Part shown: positions 7,579 to 19,164 of the stretch, piece by piece
How the letters are laid out: every line of letters starts with the position of its first letter
Numbering within the stretch: the first letter of the stretch is position 1
IMG/VR virus record: IMGVR_UViG_3300035216_000254
Coordinates: 1-27,727 of that record
Direction: 5' to 3' (one strand)
Length of the DNA stretch: 27,727 bases
DNA from: a virus
The notes under the pieces: model-generated
The model's database searches: none
What the model was told of the DNA's origin: nothing
The model's input: the letters and a program-made list of their open reading frames with translations, nothing else
Made by a program: the position numbers and the translations under genes

Positions 7579-10073
7579 TGCGTTTCTACACTAATGTTCA
7601 AATGATTGGAAATCAATTCCTCATAAGAGGAGTTGAGAATGGAAAAAGATATGAGCATCGGGATGAATTTTTTCCATCTGTATTTGTTAAGACGAAGAAA
7701 GATTCCAAGTATAGAACATTAAACGGCAAAGCAGTAGAAGAGGTAAGACCTGGAACAGTGCGTGACTGTAGGGATTTTTATAAAAGGTATACTGATGTTG
7801 ATGGATTTGAGATTTATGGAAATGACCGATATATCTATCAATACATTTCTGAAAAGTATCCAGAGGATGAGATTAAGTTTGACATTAGTCAAATTAAACT
7901 GGTGACTCTTGACATTGAGACTACAGCAGAGCACGGATTTCCTGACATTGAATCTGCTATAGAAGAAATTCTTGCAATTACAATTCAGGATTACACTACC
8001 AAAAAGATTACTACTTGGGGAGTGAAACCTTTTGCTAATAAGCAAGATAATGTAACTTATTATCATTGTCATAGTGAACAAGAACTTCTTGGGCACTTTA
8101 TTAACTATTGGATGGTTGATGTTCCTGATGTGATTACTGGATGGAACATTCAACTGTTTGATATTCCATACATCTGCAAACGACTTAATCGTGTGTTTGG
8201 GGAGAAGGTAATGAAGCGACTCTCTAACTGGGGTCTTGTAACAGAAGGAAAGATTTTTATTCAAGGTCGCGAGCACGTCACTTATGATATTGGTGGATTG
8301 ACTCAACTTGATTACCTTGATTTGTATAAGAAGTTTACTTATAAGGCACAGGAATCATATCGCCTAGATTATATTGCTGAGGTTGAACTTGGTCAGAAGA
8401 AACTTGACCACTCTGAGTTTGATACGTTCAAAGATTTCTATACTAAAGGATGGCAGAAGTTTATTGAATATAATATTGTTGACGTAGAATTGGTTGACCG
8501 TCTTGAGAGTAAGATGAAACTGATTGAACTTGCATTGACTATGGCATATGAAGCCAAAGTTAATTATGCTGATGTGTTCTATCAGGTTCGTATGTGGGAT
8601 AATATTATCTACAACTACCTGAAGAAGAGGGATATTGTAGTTCCTCCTCGTAAGAAAGAAACTAAAAATGAGAAGTATGCTGGTGCATATGTAAAAGAAC
8701 CAATTCCCGGTAAGTATGATTGGGTTGTGAGTTTTGACTTGAATAGTCTGTATCCTCACCTGATTATGCAATATAATATCTCACCAGAAACTTTGCTGGA
8801 AGAAAGGCATCCAACAGCATCAGTAGATAAAATCCTTAATGAAGAAATCAACTTTGAGTTGTATAAGGATAATGCAGTCTGTGCAAATGGTGCTATGTTC
8901 CGTAAGGATGTGCGTGGGTTCTTGCCAGAACTGATGGAGAAGATGTACGGCGATAGGGTTATCTTTAAAAAGAAAATGCTTAAGGCAAAGCAAGATTATG
9001 AAAAGACCCCAACAAAAGCACTTGAGAAGGAAATCTCTAGGTGTAATAATATTCAGATGGCTAAGAAGATTTCGCTCAACTCTGCTTATGGTGCCATCGG
9101 TAATCAGTATTTTAGGTACTACCAACTGGCCAATGCGGAGGCGATTACGCTTTCTGGTCAAGTTTCTATCCGTTGGATTGAGAATAAGATGAACATATAT
9201 CTAAATAATCTTTTGCAAACGACGGATACCGATTATGTTATCGCATCAGACACTGATTCGATCTATCTTAATATGGGACCTATTGTTGATAAATTTTTTG
9301 CTAATAAGTCTAGCGACAAAGCAAAGATTGTGGAGTTACTTGATATGGTCTGCGGTGAAAAACTGGAACCTTATATTGAGAAGTGTTACCAGGAACTGGC
9401 GGATTATGTCTCGGCATATGACCAAAAAATGAGTATGAAGCGGGAGAATATTGCTGACCGTGGTATTTGGACTGCAAAGAAACGTTATATTCTAAACGTA
9501 TGGAACAGTGAAGGTGTTGCTTATGCAGAACCTAAACTCAAGATGATGGGTATTGAGGCAGTAAAATCATCTACTCCGGCACCTTGTCGTAAGATGATTA
9601 AAGATGCACTACAGTTGATGATGAGTGGAACAGAAGACGAAGTAATTGATTTCATTGACAAGAGTCGTAGTAAGTTTAAATCTCTACCTCCAGAACAAAT
9701 CTCTTTCCCTCGTTCAGTTTCTGATGTTGTAAAATATAAATCCTCATCAAACATTTATTCAAAAGGAACTCCTATTCATGCCAGAGGAGCACTTCTCTTT
9801 AATCATTACATCAAAGAGAATAAATTGGACAACAAGTATTCTTTAATTAAGAATGGAGAGAAGATTAAGTTCTGCTATCTGAAGAAACCAAACATCATCC
9901 ACGAAAATGTCATTTCCTTTATTCAAGAGTTTCCTAAGGAACTTAATTTAAATCAATACATTGATTATGACCTTCAGTTTGAGAAGGCATTCTTGGATCC
10001 ATTAAAAACAATCTTGGATGCTATTGGTTGGAAGGTTGAAAAGACTAATACCTTAGAGTCATTCTTCTCTTAA
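7578..10073 (+). CDS. 43: DNA polymerase gp43, family B
   Basis: The replicative polymerase with 3'-5' proofreading. Exo I is at D112/E114 (LDIETT), Exo II near GWNIQLFD (188-195) and Exo III at YNIVD (298-302). Polymerase motif A is DLNSLYP (387-393), motif B is KISLNSAYG (497-505) and motif C is SDTDS with D558/D560. All catalytic residues are intact. The C terminus LESFFS resembles a clamp-binding tail. The 831 residues compare with about 898 in T4 and are typical for cyanophages. No intein or intron interrupts the motifs. The start overlaps copy C (TAATG) and lacks a good ribosome site of its own. Confidence 0.98.
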   Translation: MRFYTNVQMIGNQFLIRGVENGKRYEHRDEFFPSVFVKTKKDSKYRTLNGKAVEEVRPGTVRDCRDFYKRYTDVDGFEIYGNDRYIYQYISEKYPEDEIKFDISQIKLVTLDIETTAEHGFPDIESAIEEILAITIQDYTTKKITTWGVKPFANKQDNVTYYHCHSEQELLGHFINYWMVDVPDVITGWNIQLFDIPYICKRLNRVFGEKVMKRLSNWGLVTEGKIFIQGREHVTYDIGGLTQLDYLDLYKKFTYKAQESYRLDYIAEVELGQKKLDHSEFDTFKDFYTKGWQKFIEYNIVDVELVDRLESKMKLIELALTMAYEAKVNYADVFYQVRMWDNIIYNYLKKRDIVVPPRKKETKNEKYAGAYVKEPIPGKYDWVVSFDLNSLYPHLIMQYNISPETLLEERHPTASVDKILNEEINFELYKDNAVCANGAMFRKDVRGFLPELMEKMYGDRVIFKKKMLKAKQDYEKTPTKALEKEISRCNNIQMAKKISLNSAYGAIGNQYFRYYQLANAEAITLSGQVSIRWIENKMNIYLNNLLQTTDTDYVIASDTDSIYLNMGPIVDKFFANKSSDKAKIVELLDMVCGEKLEPYIEKCYQELADYVSAYDQKMSMKRENIADRGIWTAKKRYILNVWNSEGVAYAEPKLKMMGIEAVKSSTPAPCRKMIKDALQLMMSGTEDEVIDFIDKSRSKFKSLPPEQISFPRSVSDVVKYKSSSNIYSKGTPIHARGALLFNHYIKENKLDNKYSLIKNGEKIKFCYLKKPNIIHENVISFIQEFPKELNLNQYIDYDLQFEKAFLDPLKTILDAIGWKVEKTNTLESFFS

Positions 10074-10141
10074 GTGTCATGTCTAGAGCATTGACTTTCT
10101 AACCTAACTATACTAGACTTTGAACCAGTGTAATTTACCTT
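10074..10141 (+). promoter_or_regulatory. Short gap before uvsX with possible promoter-like elements
   Basis: The 68-base gap contains TTGACT (10091-10096) and TATACT (10109-10114), but the spacing is only 12 bases. An inverted repeat GTCTAG (10081-10086)/CTAGAC (10113-10118) brackets both. A modified early or middle promoter is possible. There is no terminator after gp43, so readthrough into uvsX is likely. Confidence 0.3.
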
Positions 10142-11149
10142 ATGGACTTCCTGAAAGAAATTGTAAAAGAAATTGGAGATGAATTCACACAACTTGCAGC
10201 AGATATTGATGAAACCGAAAGATATGTTGATACGGGTTCGTACATCTTTAACGGACTTTGTTCAGGTAGCATATTTGGTGGTGTATCTGGGAATAAGATT
10301 ACTGCCATTGCTGGGGAGTCTAGCACTGGAAAAACTTTCTTTAGCTTGGCAGTCGTCAAAAATTTCCTTGATTCTAATCCTGATGGGTATTGCTTATATT
10401 TTGACACTGAGGCCGCTGTTAATAAGTCTCTACTCGCAGGTCGTGGGGTAAACCTTGACCGCACAGTAGTCGTCAATGTGGTCACTGTTGAGGAGTTCAG
10501 AAGCAAGGCACTCAAGGCAGTGGATATGTATCTCAAAACCTCTGAGGAGGATCGCAAACCTTGTATATTTGTGCTAGACTCTTTAGGTATGCTCTCGACT
10601 GAGAAAGAGATTAGAGATGCCCTTGACGAAAAACAGGTCAGGGATATGACAAAATCTCAACTCATCAAGGGTGCTTTCCGTATGCTGACTCTGAAACTGG
10701 GTCAAGCAAACATTCCTATGATTGTCACTAATCATACTTATGATGTCATTGGTTCCTATGTCCCTATGAAAGAAATGGGTGGAGGTTCTGGTCTCAAGTA
10801 TGCTGCTTCTACAATCATCTATCTCAGCAAAAAGAAAGAGAAGGATGGAACAGAGGTCATTGGAAATCTTATCAAGGCAAAGACTCATAAGTCGCGTTTG
10901 AGTAAGGAGAATAAGGATGTTACAGTGCGTCTTTATTATGATAAGCGTGGTCTTGATCGTTATTATGGTCTTCTTGAATTGGGTGAGATTGGAGGACTTT
11001 GGAAGAACGTTGCTGGTCGATATGAAATGAATGGTAAGAAAGTATATGCGAAGGCAATACTTAAGGAACCAGAAGTATACTTCACTGAAGAAGTGATGGA
11101 ACAGTTAGACCAAATCGCACAGAAGGAGTTTAGTTATGGAGAAAGTTGA
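10142..11149 (+). CDS. uvsX: UvsX recombinase (RecA-like)
   Basis: The strand-exchange protein of T4-type recombination-dependent replication. Walker A is GESSTGKT (residues 58-65). YCLYFDTEAAVNK follows, then a Walker B-like strand CIFVLDSLGML, and the loop region IPMIVTNHTYDV...GGGSGLKYAAS. The 335 residues are somewhat shorter than T4 UvsX (about 390), as usual in cyanophages. It lies between gp43 and gp41 and overlaps gp41 by 14 bases. The gp41 ribosome site GGAG is inside its last codons, so recombinase and helicase are co-expressed. Confidence 0.97.
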   Translation: MDFLKEIVKEIGDEFTQLAADIDETERYVDTGSYIFNGLCSGSIFGGVSGNKITAIAGESSTGKTFFSLAVVKNFLDSNPDGYCLYFDTEAAVNKSLLAGRGVNLDRTVVVNVVTVEEFRSKALKAVDMYLKTSEEDRKPCIFVLDSLGMLSTEKEIRDALDEKQVRDMTKSQLIKGAFRMLTLKLGQANIPMIVTNHTYDVIGSYVPMKEMGGGSGLKYAASTIIYLSKKKEKDGTEVIGNLIKAKTHKSRLSKENKDVTVRLYYDKRGLDRYYGLLELGEIGGLWKNVAGRYEMNGKKVYAKAILKEPEVYFTEEVMEQLDQIAQKEFSYGES

Positions 11150-14246: not shown

Positions 14247-14309
14247 CTCAGTTGGTAGAGCACCTGCTTTGCAAGCAGGCTGTCAGCGGTTCGAGTCCGC
14301 TATTCTCCA
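14237..14309 (+). tRNA. tRNA-Ala (UGC)
   Basis: The cloverleaf is complete: acceptor GGGGAAT/ATTCTCC, D arm GCTC...GAGC, anticodon stem CCTGC/GCAGG with loop TTTGCAA (anticodon TGC) and T arm with GGTTCGAGTCC. CCA is not fully encoded. The 3' end overlaps a late-promoter motif. Confidence 0.95.
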
Positions 14310-14315
14310 TAAATA
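14308..14315 (+). promoter_or_regulatory. T4-type late promoter (CATAAATA) at the tRNA-Ala 3' end
   Basis: NATAAATA overlaps the last base pair and discriminator base of tRNA-Ala and lies 29 bases before ATG 14344, the right distance for late initiation of that gene. Confidence 0.6.
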
Positions 14316-14343: not shown

Positions 14344-15741
14344 ATGGCAATCACTATTCCTGCATCTGCATCAAAAACTTTTGAGAAGGTTATGGGTGCA
14401 TTGGGAGGAGAAGATTATTCTTACTATCTTTTTGATGTTAAGAATGTTAATGAAAATCCCAAAGCAAAAAAAGTAATTGAAATGGTGGTCTATGTGCCAC
14501 AATCAAAAAGAGTAACGGCAACTGCTAATATTCAAGCATCTCTTGATGGTGATGGAGTTATTGCTAAAATACTAGAAAAAGAAACTGAGTTAGATGTATA
14601 TCTAATAGATGATGTAAAAAAATATATTAGAATTCTTGTAAAACCAAATGGTTCAAAAGGGTCTGGTGGTGGCGCAGCAGCAACAGTAATACAAGAATCT
14701 GCACAGTGTGTGTATGCTGCTATGAGATATTATTGCGGTCAGAAAGAAATATATACCGAAGAAGATCTTAAGTGCGGTCTAGACCACGTTGATATTGGTG
14801 GCACAAAACTAGAAGAAATTATGGGTCTTCCAAAGGAATGGAAAGAGGGATCTGTAAAAGGAGCAAATGAAATATTTAAAGAAGTTGGTGGAACTGGGTG
14901 GAAGTTTGTAAGAGGAGATAGTATTATTGATGATGGAGCAATTAAAAAAGCATTTGGTAGAGTAAAGAAACAAACTAATCTTTCTTCAGAAGATAAGTGG
15001 AATCCTGCTGACATCTGGATGGTAAAGGAATCTGAAATTAATGCAATTAAAAAGCATTTGGATAGAGAGAATACTATTGATTGTTTAAACAATGCACTTC
15101 TTCAAAGGTTTAATGATAGTTCTTTAATTGGTATTTCTCTCAAAAAAATTGAGAGTGAGCCAAAGATGGATATTAAAAATAATCAGACTGCTACTGTCAG
15201 AAAAGCAAATGAAAAAGCAAGGTTTGCAAAATATGATCTCACTTTTACATCTTCTATGGATGTCTATCTTTATTATGGACAAGGAACTTTTGAAAAATTT
15301 CAAGCAAGAAATTTTGGTGGATCTTCAAAGGGAGATTGGAAGTTAGAATTGAAAGGAAAGTCTGCTGCTCAAGGAAAAATTCAGGGAGCAGTTGTTATTG
15401 AACTTTTAAAAAATGCTGGATTTGGTAATATATCTCAGTTTAATATTCCAACTTGGGCAGAGTGTGCTCCAGGAACAAGTCCAGCACAGAAAAAAATAAC
15501 AACAGAAATTTATAATTTATTGAACGATTATAATGCTAAAGGTATGACTGGCACGGAAACGAAAGATAAAGCAGAAATTGCCACCCAAGATAAATCTTGG
15601 AGGTATAGTAAACTTGCTGGACTGAGGTTTTTAGATTGGTTGCAGAACACTTGCAAAGATAAAAATATGGCAATGAAGGAAATCTATCTCTATGCTTCTT
15701 CCCAGTCAGACAAATCCTCTGTATATTATAAATTACAATAA
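14344..15741 (+). CDS. Late protein, 465 aa, with a possible PD-(D/E)XK nuclease-like core
   Basis: I do not recognise a named family. N-terminal residues (about 1-95) are beta-rich, followed by a Gly/Ala linker. A central region has KWNPADIWMV (about 218-227) and, some 35 residues later, SLIGISLKK (about 260-268). A Pro-x-Asp turn followed by a strand ending in Lys is the arrangement of the PD-(D/E)XK nuclease fold, here with Ser in place of the usual acidic residue. A second Gly-rich region RNFGGSSKGDWKLELKGKSAAQG follows. ATG 14344 is chosen over GTG 14329 because GGAG (14331-14334) sits 9 bases before it. The late promoter suggests a virion or assembly protein. The nuclease idea is tentative. 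Confidence 0.7.
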   Translation: MAITIPASASKTFEKVMGALGGEDYSYYLFDVKNVNENPKAKKVIEMVVYVPQSKRVTATANIQASLDGDGVIAKILEKETELDVYLIDDVKKYIRILVKPNGSKGSGGGAAATVIQESAQCVYAAMRYYCGQKEIYTEEDLKCGLDHVDIGGTKLEEIMGLPKEWKEGSVKGANEIFKEVGGTGWKFVRGDSIIDDGAIKKAFGRVKKQTNLSSEDKWNPADIWMVKESEINAIKKHLDRENTIDCLNNALLQRFNDSSLIGISLKKIESEPKMDIKNNQTATVRKANEKARFAKYDLTFTSSMDVYLYYGQGTFEKFQARNFGGSSKGDWKLELKGKSAAQGKIQGAVVIELLKNAGFGNISQFNIPTWAECAPGTSPAQKKITTEIYNLLNDYNAKGMTGTETKDKAEIATQDKSWRYSKLAGLRFLDWLQNTCKDKNMAMKEIYLYASSQSDKSSVYYKLQ

Positions 15742-15774
15742 CCACTAAATATAGTATAAGAACTAACAATATAA

Positions 15775-17001
15775 ATGAAAAGTTTCTTTCAATTTTTAGG
15801 TGAGGCAAAATCAGAAGCATCACTTAAAGCACAGAAGTTAAACCTAAAGAGTGATGGACACGGTGGTTGGTTAGACTCCCGTGGTAAGTTTGTAGCAACT
15901 ACCGAAGACGGTAAGTTAAAATTTGTTGATAAGAAGGAAGCAAAGGATAAAGAAGAAGGTGGAGAAAAGAAATCAGCAGCACAGCAACCTGCTACTGCCA
16001 AACCTGCTACTAAACCAGAAGAGCAACCTAAAGCAAAGGCAAAGACTGGTGAACCTGAAGATGGAGATACTGAAGGATCCTCTAGTACTCTAACTGTTGT
16101 ATTTGGTAGATTTAATCCTCCTACTGTTGGCCACGAAAAACTTTTAAAGTCTGCTGATCGTATGGCAGAAGGTGATGACTTTAAAGTATATCCTTCTAGG
16201 ACACAGGATCCAAAGAAGAATCCACTTGATGCTGATATGAAAGTATCTTATATGAAGAAGATGTTCTCTGATTATGAAGAGAATATTATTAATGATCCTA
16301 ATATGAGATCTATTTTTGATGTATTGGTTGCAGCAAATGAAGATGGATATGATAACATTAATATTGTTGTAGGTGCTGACCGTCAGGCAGAATTTGAGAA
16401 TCTGGCACAGAAATATAATGGTGAGTTGTATGAGTTTAATCAAATACGTGTGATTTCTGCTGGTGCTAGAGATAGTGAGGCAGAGGGTGTTGAGGGAATG
16501 TCTGCATCCAAGATGAGAAAGGCAGTAGTAGAAGATGACTTTGCTTCATTCCGTAGAGGCACACCTAAGACATTAGACGATGGTGATACACAAGCACTAT
16601 TTAATGCCGTCCGTTCTGGGATGAAGATTAAGAAGAAAAAAGATGTTGCAGAGATGTGGCAGATTGCTCCAAAGTTTGACCACAAAGGTTTACGTGAGCA
16701 GTATGTTAACGATAAAATTTACCGAATTGGTGATATTGTAGAGAACCTGAATACCGGTTTGATTGGTAGAATCATTCGTAGAGGAACTAATCATTTAATC
16801 TGTCTGACCAAAGAAGAGTATATGTTTAAGTCCTGGATTAGAGATGTGATGGAAGCAGTTGTAAACTACTCAGGACCATCAGGTGTTCCTTCTGATCAGA
16901 GACTTGTAGGCACAGATTCTCATAGAGAATATGCTCAGAGAATGACAGGGACAACTGCTATACGAAATTTCATAAATAAGTATAAGAAAAAGAAGTCGTA
17001 G
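15775..17001 (+). CDS. Nucleotidyltransferase-like protein with a capsid-targeting N terminus
   Basis: A 408-residue protein in three parts. Residues 1-15 (MKSFFQFLGEAKSEA) resemble the T4 capsid-targeting sequence of internal proteins (MKTYQEFIAEA), with LGE|A fitting prohead protease gp21 sites. Residues about 50-103 are a low-complexity Lys/Ala/Pro/Glu linker. The catalytic domain starts at VVFGRFNPPTVGHEKLL (G111-H120), the (H/T)xGH phosphate-binding motif of adenylyl/cytidylyltransferases. INIVVGADR follows, and then GMSASKMRKA (241-250), equivalent to the ISSTxxR motif. The C-terminal part (about 300-408) is basic. It could make NAD-type or CDP-type products; the substrate is unknown. 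Its location in a late block suggests packaging. Confidence 0.8.
   Translation: MKSFFQFLGEAKSEASLKAQKLNLKSDGHGGWLDSRGKFVATTEDGKLKFVDKKEAKDKEEGGEKKSAAQQPATAKPATKPEEQPKAKAKTGEPEDGDTEGSSSTLTVVFGRFNPPTVGHEKLLKSADRMAEGDDFKVYPSRTQDPKKNPLDADMKVSYMKKMFSDYEENIINDPNMRSIFDVLVAANEDGYDNINIVVGADRQAEFENLAQKYNGELYEFNQIRVISAGARDSEAEGVEGMSASKMRKAVVEDDFASFRRGTPKTLDDGDTQALFNAVRSGMKIKKKKDVAEMWQIAPKFDHKGLREQYVNDKIYRIGDIVENLNTGLIGRIIRRGTNHLICLTKEEYMFKSWIRDVMEAVVNYSGPSGVPSDQRLVGTDSHREYAQRMTGTTAIRNFINKYKKKKS
16971..16978 (+). promoter_or_regulatory. Possible late promoter (CATAAATA) within the nucleotidyltransferase end
   Basis: The octamer lies inside the last codons of the upstream gene, 31 bases before ATG 17009. 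Distance and motif fit a late promoter, but coding constraint (His-Lys-type codons in an AT-rich tail) could produce it by chance. Confidence 0.4.
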
Positions 17002-17008
17002 TATCCCA

Positions 17009-18517
17009 ATGTCTGAAATTCATTTGAGTGATCTCTCGAAAATTTATAACAAACAGATTGCAGAGAAAAAAGACGATACGTATCTTGAACCTGACATGAA
17101 TAAACGTCAGAAAAATAATGAGAAGGCACGTAAAGAACTTGCCAAGGGACCTCAAATGAAAAACCCCCATTTTGAAGCACTTGATCCTAAGGGTGCTGCA
17201 CGTATGGATGCTGCTAAGGGTAAGAAGAAAGAGACCCAAGACGAAATTGATAAGCGTCTTATGCTAGGTAAGTATGCTCCTGGTGCTAAGACTCAAAAAG
17301 AAGCACTTGACCCTGTAGGTCAGGAAGATGCTGATGTAGATAACGACGGTGATGTTGATAAGTCTGACAAGTATCTTGGTAAGCGTCGTAAGGCAATTGC
17401 CAAAGCGATGAAGAAGAAGATGTCAGAAGACTATAAAGTGCTTCCTAAAGAGAAGATGGCACGTCAGTCTAATAAAGCATATGATAAAGAGCAGAGTGCA
17501 GTCTCTGCTGGTGATGAAAAAGAAACTAATAAGCAGATGCAGCGCAGAATTGCAATGCAGAATCCTGCTGGTCGCAAGGCACAACTTGCAAAAGTTAAGA
17601 CTGAGTCTTTCTCTAACTGGAGAACTGACCTGATTGAAGTTGCTCCTACTGGGGATGACGAAGAAACAAAAATTAAAGAAAAGAAGGTCAATAATAAAAT
17701 AACACTCAACCCCAAACTTGGTGAAGAAGTTGTATCTGAACTAGGTGGAACTATGATTGAGATGGTTGAGTATGATGAGTTTGATGGAATGGTTGAAGGT
17801 GTATATTTTGAACTTCACGAAGAAGGTTATGCTGAAGATGCTATTGAGGAAGCACTTGAGTGGGTATTGACTGAGGCAAAAGTTACCTATGGTTCGGATA
17901 CTGAGTCTCCAAAACAGCAGATGATGAAGAAGGCAAAGGGTCGCCTTAAGTTCCTTGGCAGAAAAGTTGGTGAAAAGATGACATCTGCAAAGAAGAAAGT
18001 AGGAATGGCAGTTGCTCAAGGACGAGTTGATGCCTACAATAAAAAGAGAGAAGTAAAACAATCTGCTTCTGATATTGCTAATAAAGTCAAAAAGTCTGCT
18101 ATTGATACTTCTAAGAATGCAAAGAAGGGTTTAAAGAGTAAGATTAAGAGTGCTGCAGAAAAAATTGCTGATCGTATGAGTGAGGAAATTGAATCTGACC
18201 CAAAAGAAAAGCAAATGCTTTCTAAGAAGAGGCAGATGATGATGAAGCAACAAATGCTTGATAAGCAAAGATTACAAGCACAACAACAGGGTAAGTTGCC
18301 TTCTGGTCATAGAACTGAGCAGAAAGAAGAAATGACTGCCTTTGAGAAAGTAAAAGCAGACATTATCAAAAAACACGGAAAGAATGCTATTGTAGGTGCT
18401 CCTAAAAATAAGGTGGATCATGCTAAAATCAATGCGGCTAAAGCAAGTGCCCGTAAACCGAATAAGCGTGAGCAAGAGTCCAGTGGTCGTTACACTGGAG
18501 GATACGCAGGAGATTAA
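17009..18517 (+). CDS. Lys-rich putative virion protein with an EF-hand/dockerin-like loop
   Basis: The 502 residues are about one-third Lys/Glu/Asp and mostly helical or disordered. A calcium-type loop DVDNDGDVDKSD (residues 109-120) has acidic residues at positions 1, 3, 5 and 12 of the EF-hand pattern. The segment ESFSNWRTDLIEVA (about residues 200-213) recurs, as I recall, in other cyanophage structural proteins and contains a prohead-protease-like LIE|V. Further helices follow (VYFELHEEGYAEDAIEEALEWVLTEA, then KSAIDTSKNAKKGLKSKIKS). The C terminus ends in GRYTGGYAGD. The composition is reminiscent of T4 internal or prohead-core proteins. No ribosome site is evident at ATG 17009. Function is inferred only from composition and late context. 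Confidence 0.65.
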   Translation: MSEIHLSDLSKIYNKQIAEKKDDTYLEPDMNKRQKNNEKARKELAKGPQMKNPHFEALDPKGAARMDAAKGKKKETQDEIDKRLMLGKYAPGAKTQKEALDPVGQEDADVDNDGDVDKSDKYLGKRRKAIAKAMKKKMSEDYKVLPKEKMARQSNKAYDKEQSAVSAGDEKETNKQMQRRIAMQNPAGRKAQLAKVKTESFSNWRTDLIEVAPTGDDEETKIKEKKVNNKITLNPKLGEEVVSELGGTMIEMVEYDEFDGMVEGVYFELHEEGYAEDAIEEALEWVLTEAKVTYGSDTESPKQQMMKKAKGRLKFLGRKVGEKMTSAKKKVGMAVAQGRVDAYNKKREVKQSASDIANKVKKSAIDTSKNAKKGLKSKIKSAAEKIADRMSEEIESDPKEKQMLSKKRQMMMKQQMLDKQRLQAQQQGKLPSGHRTEQKEEMTAFEKVKADIIKKHGKNAIVGAPKNKVDHAKINAAKASARKPNKREQESSGRYTGGYAGD

Positions 18518-18520
18518 ATA

Positions 18521-18910
18521 ATGTCAGCAATCTCCAAAGCACAAAAGAGTTGTAAAGCAGGATACTATTATTGCTACACTCATAAAAAGTGTAGAAAACT
18601 TCCTATGGGATATTATATTGGTCGTGGTGGTTATCTTTCTAAAGATGACGACTCAAGTGAAGAAACCAAAAATAAAAATGGAGGTGGAAATGGAAATGGT
18701 AATGGTTCTAACGGTAATGGTGGTAGTAATGGTAACGGCAACGGTGGTGCTGGTGGTGTGAGTGAAGAAAAAACTTTTGTTCAAAGAGATAAAATTATGA
18801 AGAAAGCAAAATCACTTCATAAGCATCTATATAAAAATCTTCACAAAAAAGATACATCTGGTGATGTTAATGAAGGAAAAACATTTAAGCAGTTTATAAG
18901 TGATATATAG
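18521..18910 (+). CDS. Small Gly/Asn-rich protein with Cys N terminus and CTS-like C terminus
   Basis: The N-terminal 45 residues (KSCKAGYYYCYTHKKCRKLPMGYYIGRGGYL) carry three Cys (11, 18, 24) and many Tyr. The middle (about residues 54-80) is a Gly/Asn/Ser repeat such as GNGNGGSNGNGNGG, a flexible linker that may vary in length by slippage. The C-terminal end is a basic helix ending EGKTFKQFISDI. That end resembles the T4-type capsid-targeting peptide (M)KT(F/Y)xxFIxEA. It starts 4 bases after the preceding stop. It is probably a virion component, but I know no function. Confidence 0.6.
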   Translation: MSAISKAQKSCKAGYYYCYTHKKCRKLPMGYYIGRGGYLSKDDDSSEETKNKNGGGNGNGNGSNGNGGSNGNGNGGAGGVSEEKTFVQRDKIMKKAKSLHKHLYKNLHKKDTSGDVNEGKTFKQFISDI

Positions 18911-19156: not shown

Positions 19157-19164
19157 TATAAATA
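19157..19164 (+). promoter_or_regulatory. T4-type late promoter (TATAAATA)
   Basis: An exact octamer lies in the short gap between the 71-aa gene and the structural gene at 19201, 37 bases before its ATG. Confidence 0.75.

Follow-up and report, generated by a model that had tools for sequence, protein, structure and literature searches.

A predicted nucleotidyltransferase of T4-like cyanophages begins with a T4-type capsid-targeting sequence and is likely head cargo

Is a nucleotidyltransferase of a T4-like cyanophage addressed to the phage head by the same kind of N-terminal peptide that marks the internal proteins of T4? The window analysed here is a 27.7-kb IMG/VR fragment (27,727 nt, IMGVR_UViG_3300035216_000254) whose gene content is that of a T4-like cyanophage. 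The ORF at 15775-17001 on the + strand encodes a protein of 408 aa, and 556 phage records, chiefly T4-like cyanophages, hold a relative of it. An earlier note, made from the sequence alone, had described a T4-like targeting peptide with a gp21-type cleavage site, a low-complexity linker and a (H/T)xGH nucleotidyltransferase domain. By analogy with T4 Alt, it had suggested that the enzyme is packaged in the head and injected to act on host NAD or nucleotide metabolism. Three outcomes were set beforehand as refuting: absence from virions, homologues without the N-terminal peptide, and no HxGH-family similarity. The ORF, N terminus, linker and motifs were verified at their positions (Table 1).

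Table 1. Features of the nucleotidyltransferase gene and its surroundings, in window positions.
Feature	Position	Strand	Evidence or remark
Upstream neighbour (phrog_1462)	14344..15741	+	Homologue SSCSM1_90, annotated virion protein, 32% identity; ATAAATA at 14309-14315
Late-promoter-like CTAAATA	15745..15751	+	30 nt upstream of the start codon; one mismatch to NATAAATA
Capsid-targeting-sequence-like peptide MKSFFQFLGEA, residues 1-11	15775..15807	+	T4 IPII/IPIII layout and conservation; gp21-type cut after E10 (LGE/A) predicted
Small conserved module behind the tag, residues 14-59, containing SDGHGGWLDSRGKFVATTEDGKL	15814..15951	+	pLDDT about 74-84; profile matches elsewhere
E/K/A/P-rich disordered linker, residues 60-103	15952..16083	+	pLDDT <50 for 60-101; composition
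HxGH-superfamily nucleotidyltransferase domain, residues 105-285	16087..16629	+	Pfam, PHROGs, predicted structure, Foldseek
(T/H)xGH active-site motif GRFNPPTVGH, residues 111-120	16105..16134	+	Alignment: N114, P115, P116, H120 invariant; G119 >=90%
SASKMR motif, residues 243-248, equivalent of the ISxTxxR-type ATP-binding motif	16501..16518	+	S243, R248 invariant
C-terminal all-beta, SH3-like module, about residues 303-362	16681..16860	+	Predicted structure, phrog_4808
Downstream neighbour	17009..18517	+	Homologue SSCSM1_92, annotated virion protein, 39% identity; ATAAATA at 16972-16978
Downstream small protein ending EGKTFKQFISDI, possible C-terminal tag version (weak)	18521..18910	+

The N terminus of the window protein, MKSFFQFLGEA, matches that of T4 IPII and IPIII. 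Read directly from the T4 record, both begin MKTYQEFIAEA, and IPI begins MKTFKEF. As a control, the same regular expression was applied to a 50-kb T4 stretch and matched IPII and IPIII only. Mutational mapping of T4 IPIII assigned targeting mainly to residues 4 and 7 and processing to residues 8 and 10, and the gp21 protease cuts after L/I-x-E (PMC9026906). Two properties define a T4-type capsid-targeting sequence (CTS): aromatic residues at positions 4 and 7 of the very N terminus, and L or I at position 8 with E10 and then a small residue. The window protein has both, and its LGE/A satisfies the gp21 rule. The earlier claims about the peptide and the site therefore held, the second as a sequence match; cleavage itself is inferred.

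The N-terminal alignment proposed as a check was carried out on orthologues gathered from IMG/VR with seeds elsewhere in the protein, that is, without reference to the tag. All 35 orthologues with an intact start carry it. Across 33 distinct N-termini, counting that of the window protein, F7, E10 and A11 never vary (entropy 0 at 7, 10 and 11), K2 and F4 reach 97% (entropy 0.2 at position 4), and position 8 is L or I only. Positions 9 and 12 are free and of high entropy. The conserved positions coincide with the functional positions mapped in IPIII. Moreover, the codons for F4, F7, E10 and A11 differ synonymously across this set, and therefore selection acts on the protein. The tag is retained where the module behind it has been lost (S-SZBM1_140, MRFRQFIIEA; S-CREM2 gp154, MKNFSSFLTEA), and one distant homologue keeps the variant MISSFSQYLVEE. 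A chance origin is excluded: the window holds a single copy of the strict start motif, and across 38 related IMG/VR loci that motif matches only the nucleotidyltransferase gene.

The tag is not found in the related nucleotidyltransferases of P-HM2, S-RSM4, S-PM2 and jumbo phages, so the refuting outcome of untagged homologues occurred in part. Packaging of the enzyme is not universal, since the P-HM2, S-RSM4 and jumbo-phage enzymes lack the tag. The check was extended to S-CBWM1, a phage outside the T4-like group: the NMNAT of its virion is untagged, and the strict motif is missing from 50-kb stretches of both S-CBWM1 and S-TIM5.

The claim of a low-complexity linker held in part: residues 14-59 form a conserved module, and only residues ~60-101 are disordered. 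The profile of the small module also matches the kinase and Cas9 of S-CREM2, g128 of S-CRM01 and proteins of S-N03 and S-B68, and the module is missing from some tagged nucleotidyltransferases. The C-terminal all-beta module (about residues 303-360) was not mentioned by the earlier note and is a separate gene in S-RSM4 and S-PM2.

Residues 105-285 can be assigned with confidence to an adenylyltransferase-type domain of the HxGH superfamily, defined by (T/H)xGH and SxSxxR motifs on a Rossmann-like fold. Here the earlier reading held, and the outcome of no HxGH-family similarity did not occur. PHROGs gave phrog_395 cytidyltransferase (E 1e-104), and Pfam CTP_transf_like matched at E 2e-4, just above its cut-off. 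The domain was modelled with pLDDT mostly >90, and both GRFNPPTVGH and SASKMR are nearly invariant among relatives. A family-profile sequence search of solved structures found no relative. The proposed structure comparison gave mixed fold matches: the top 50 Foldseek matches in the PDB are all adenylyltransferases (PPAT, NadD or NMNAT), PPAT is the best, and PPAT and NadD are interleaved. Because all 50 are adenylyltransferases, adenylyl transfer is favoured over the database name cytidyltransferase. The fold does not choose the acceptor; it does not separate NMN, NaMN and phosphopantetheine, and PPAT fits equally well. GRFxPPxxGH resembles NadM-type motifs. A weak match to phrog_3462 (NMNAT, E 3e-4) was also obtained, and phages use NadM/NadR/NadV NAD salvage (PMC9503650). 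The motif type, NadR-like fusions among tagged proteins (below) and known phage NAD salvage make NMN/NaMN the most plausible acceptor, an inferred best guess that has as good a chance of being wrong as right.

Late expression is a requirement for a head protein. The cyanophage late promoter consensus is NATAAATA (PMC2984593), and a late-promoter-like element precedes the window gene (Table 1). ATAAATA stands upstream of the nucleotidyltransferase gene, mostly by 26-32 nt, in 21/35 related loci, and [AC]TAAATA lies <=60 nt upstream of all 30 tagged genes of related loci vs 27% of other ORFs. Within the window, ATAAATA at 14309-14315, 16972-16978 and 19158-19164 precedes the gene starts 14344, 17009 and 19201, respectively, by 35-43 nt. 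Over the whole window the element is not enriched (8 seen vs 8.9 expected; all 8 on the + strand), and it is informative only by its position relative to genes. Genes of nucleotide metabolism flank the enzyme gene, with mazG upstream and nrdA and nrdB downstream.

Presence in mature virions is established through literature on orthologues, not for the window phage itself. Mass spectrometry found S-SCSM1 ORF91, ~72% identical to the window protein (PMC9602691), S-SM1 T4-GC190 (PMC3037559), S-SZBM1_140 (PMC9146016) and S-CREM2 gp154 (PMC10665884) in virions. All four are tagged, with MKKFSAFLNEA as the N terminus of S-SM1 T4-GC190. Head packaging, as suggested earlier, is therefore supported by tagged orthologues in four cyanophage virions, and the refuting outcome of absence did not occur; injection and action on NAD remain inference. 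The authors of two proteomes (one PMC9602691) themselves leave room for the enzyme being an abundant contaminant or carry-over of CsCl-banded particles. The S-PM2 enzyme, an untagged fusion, was undetected in the S-PM2 virion; that proteome had little depth, and known structural proteins were missed as well. At S-PM2 p141-p142 (L289 5025-6804), T4-GC71 seems broken, with its C-terminal part fused to the nucleotidyltransferase, unlike its relatives.

Only four S-CREM2 genes carry the strict motif, namely those for SAM hydrolase (gp6), APH-like kinase (gp14), cytidylyltransferase (gp154) and gp13. Each of the four products is among the 52 proteins, out of 219, that were detected in virions (hypergeometric p = 0.003), though this value is optimistic because the motif was partly shaped by viewing some of those N termini. 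The annotated structural proteins of the S-CREM2 virion all lack the tag. The virion-detected Cas9 (gp12) has a variant, RFASFMAEA, at residues 18-26 and, behind it, the small module known from the window enzyme, and its positional homologues in S-CRM01, S-N03 and S-B68 have the same N-terminal layout. The arrangement suggests that Cas9 may be packaged and may share a cargo cassette with the kinase. The S-CRM01 kinase, reported in virions, begins MISFDQFLSEK. The second tagged gene of S-SCSM1, gp30, is not flagged as a virion protein. Proteins annotated as gp21-type protease/core scaffold were virion-detected in S-SCSM1 (gp40, gp41) and S-CREM2 (gp143, gp144); the window itself is only a fragment.

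Two observations on Cas9 are recorded separately. The S-CREM2 (L002) Cas9 at 7704-10313 and the positional homologues in L277, L278 and L279 begin M..SRW..W, then a tag-like F.SF[ILM].EA and the window-type small module. A hidden Cas9 start just before RFASFMAEA was considered and rejected: the codon is CTG, and the S-CRM01, S-N03 and S-B68 homologues keep the longer N terminus, and the annotated start therefore stands.

The breadth of cargo was surveyed by scanning IMG/VR with a DNA pattern for M-K-x-F-x-x-F-[FLIMV]-x-E-A. All totals are lower bounds. Of at least 79 decidable distinct matches, 78 are gene starts. Position 8 is I or L in 66 of these 78, though five residues were allowed (p = 9e-8 vs codon expectation). 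A first shifted-register control was contaminated by MKxFFxF sequences and was split before use: 98 of its 110 matches were the true tag again, and among the remaining 12 only 6 resemble gene starts, 2 of them true variants. Because the census proteins, including the fusions in L059, L076 and L083, were selected by the tag, they were excluded from the conservation evidence. The nucleotidyltransferase motif is present in 26 census proteins, 3 of which are fused to a P-loop kinase as in NadR. Other tagged cargo includes two double-psi-barrel lytic transglycosylases, a glucosaminidase, a GNAT, a deoxyribonucleotidase-like protein, DUF5661, DUF6267 and many unknowns. The N-terminal peptide is thus conserved at the positions important in T4 and common to unrelated proteins. 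The tag may also exist in a C-terminal version, KTFKxF near the stop; its enrichment is weak (10 matches, 1.6-fold per residue).

Several loci deserve mention in their own right. The L059, L076 and L083 proteins, a tagged nucleotidyltransferase with a C-terminal P-loop kinase, have a NadR-like architecture. L113 1384-2679 (-) encodes a homologue that has the tag while its active-site motif has changed to LAKFNPPSKEH; it may be catalytically inactive yet head-addressed. L110 1211-1858 (-) and L074 3736-4149 (+) encode small tagged proteins starting AHYTSASNKENILKTGF and YYHGTPESSADKIKKSGF, respectively, which by eye are ADP-ribosyltransferase-fold-like and possible Alt analogues. KTFKxF[IML]xDI or similar stands just before the stop in unrelated proteins: the window protein at 18521-18910, L018, L127, S-SCSM1 gp93 and S-CREM2 gp12.

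Taken together, the enzyme is likely a late-expressed head cargo protein with a T4-type tag, a gp21-type cut, ejection and an NMN/NaMN-type activity. Support from the analysis or the literature exists for the tag, selection on it, its occurrence on unrelated proteins, the catalytic motifs and fold, the late-type promoter element and the presence of orthologues in virions. Docking, cleavage, ejection, substrate and purpose are inferred, and there is no experimental evidence for cleavage, a mature N terminus at A11 or ejection. In the proposed sequence of events, the enzyme would be expressed late as head cargo, and its first ten to eleven residues would dock it on the prohead core. Cleavage behind E10, probably by a gp21-type prohead protease, would then free the remainder (small module, linker and nucleotidyltransferase) inside the head, and ejection would carry it out together with the DNA. 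From the earliest minutes of infection, the enzyme may use ATP to adenylylate a small molecule in the host, with NMN/NaMN as the likeliest acceptor. The purpose may be to top up NAD during or against host defence.

The rival that survives best accepts packaging and questions the substrate, which could be that of a PPAT or a cytidylyltransferase, a defence signal or a macromolecule. In its favour are the top Foldseek match to PPAT, the interleaving of PPAT and NadD, and the database name cytidyltransferase. Against it stand the NadM-type motif resemblance, the weak NMNAT phrog match, the NadR-like kinase fusions in L059, L076 and L083, and the known phage NAD salvage. It trails the NMN/NaMN reading by a small margin.

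In a second rival, docking on the prohead core through the tag serves head assembly or DNA condensation, and the protein stays in the particle without injection. In S-SCSM1, the counterparts of the surrounding gene block are virion proteins, and the degraded active site of tagged L113 suggests that enzyme activity can be dispensable. However, the catalytic motifs are invariant in nearly all members, the cargo behind the tag is highly diverse and includes several enzyme families, and injection is known for the T4 internal proteins that bear this tag (PMC12373910). We consider this rival unlikely. An ordinary auxiliary metabolic enzyme made in infection, with virion detection as carry-over and a peptide of other role, would suit the carry-over raised for two proteomes and the position between mazG and nrdA and nrdB, but is very unlikely given detection in four independent proteomes, the 4/4 coincidence of strict tag and virion presence in S-CREM2, and a peptide that corresponds to the T4 packaging signal and is conserved at its functional positions.

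Under the preferred reading of head cargo, the tag is probably the mark of a group of proteins that enter the host together with the DNA, injection being argued by analogy with T4. A bolder reading, towards which the balance tips slightly, is that a single portable N-terminal address, MK[S/T/N]FxxF[L/I]xEA, lets marine T4-like phages fill the head with host-directed proteins, a large set whose members can be exchanged, for delivery at the start of infection. Such cargo would comprise nucleotidyltransferases, NadR-like fusions, APH-like kinases, SAM hydrolase, possibly Cas9, GNATs, wall-degrading enzymes and many unknowns. If this is true, the injected arsenal could be read directly from genome sequence. 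Cyanophage virion proteomics has repeatedly yielded puzzling enzymes (NMNAT, kinases, SAM hydrolase, Cas9) with an unexplained entry route and a persistent worry of contamination. An address signal would account for them and would allow sequence-based cargo prediction for uncultured marine phages. It would also make many hypothetical proteins candidate injected effectors; the injected effectors of T4 are anti-restriction factors. Moreover, the tag is a possible laboratory means of loading proteins into cyanophage heads.

The virion enzyme itself was already known, and the address code and cargo range appear new. The S-SCSM1, S-SM1, S-SZBM1 and S-CREM2 virion NMNAT-like/cytidylyltransferase proteins are orthologues, ~37-72% identical where compared and all beginning with the tag; the papers report virion presence and propose no targeting signal in the sections bearing on it. 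No link of the T4 CTS to cyanophages was found in the open-licence literature searched, and earlier mention elsewhere is possible. NadM, NadR, NadD and CoaD (PPAT) share the HxGH fold and motifs with the window enzyme, whose substrate is not established. T4 Alt, a packaged ADP-ribosyltransferase, is alike as an NAD-related enzyme carried in the head, but the window protein has no ADP-ribosyltransferase domain (Pfam, PHROGs and Foldseek gave nucleotidyltransferase only) and does not qualify as Alt-type; the Alt propeptide was outside the comparison. The better parallel is T4 IPII/IPIII (CTS; Mullaney and Black 1996). The window cargo differs in being a 400-residue enzyme with an accessory module whose cleavage and injection are not shown, and it is alike in N-terminal layout, key positions, the L/I-x-E motif and swappable unrelated cargo.
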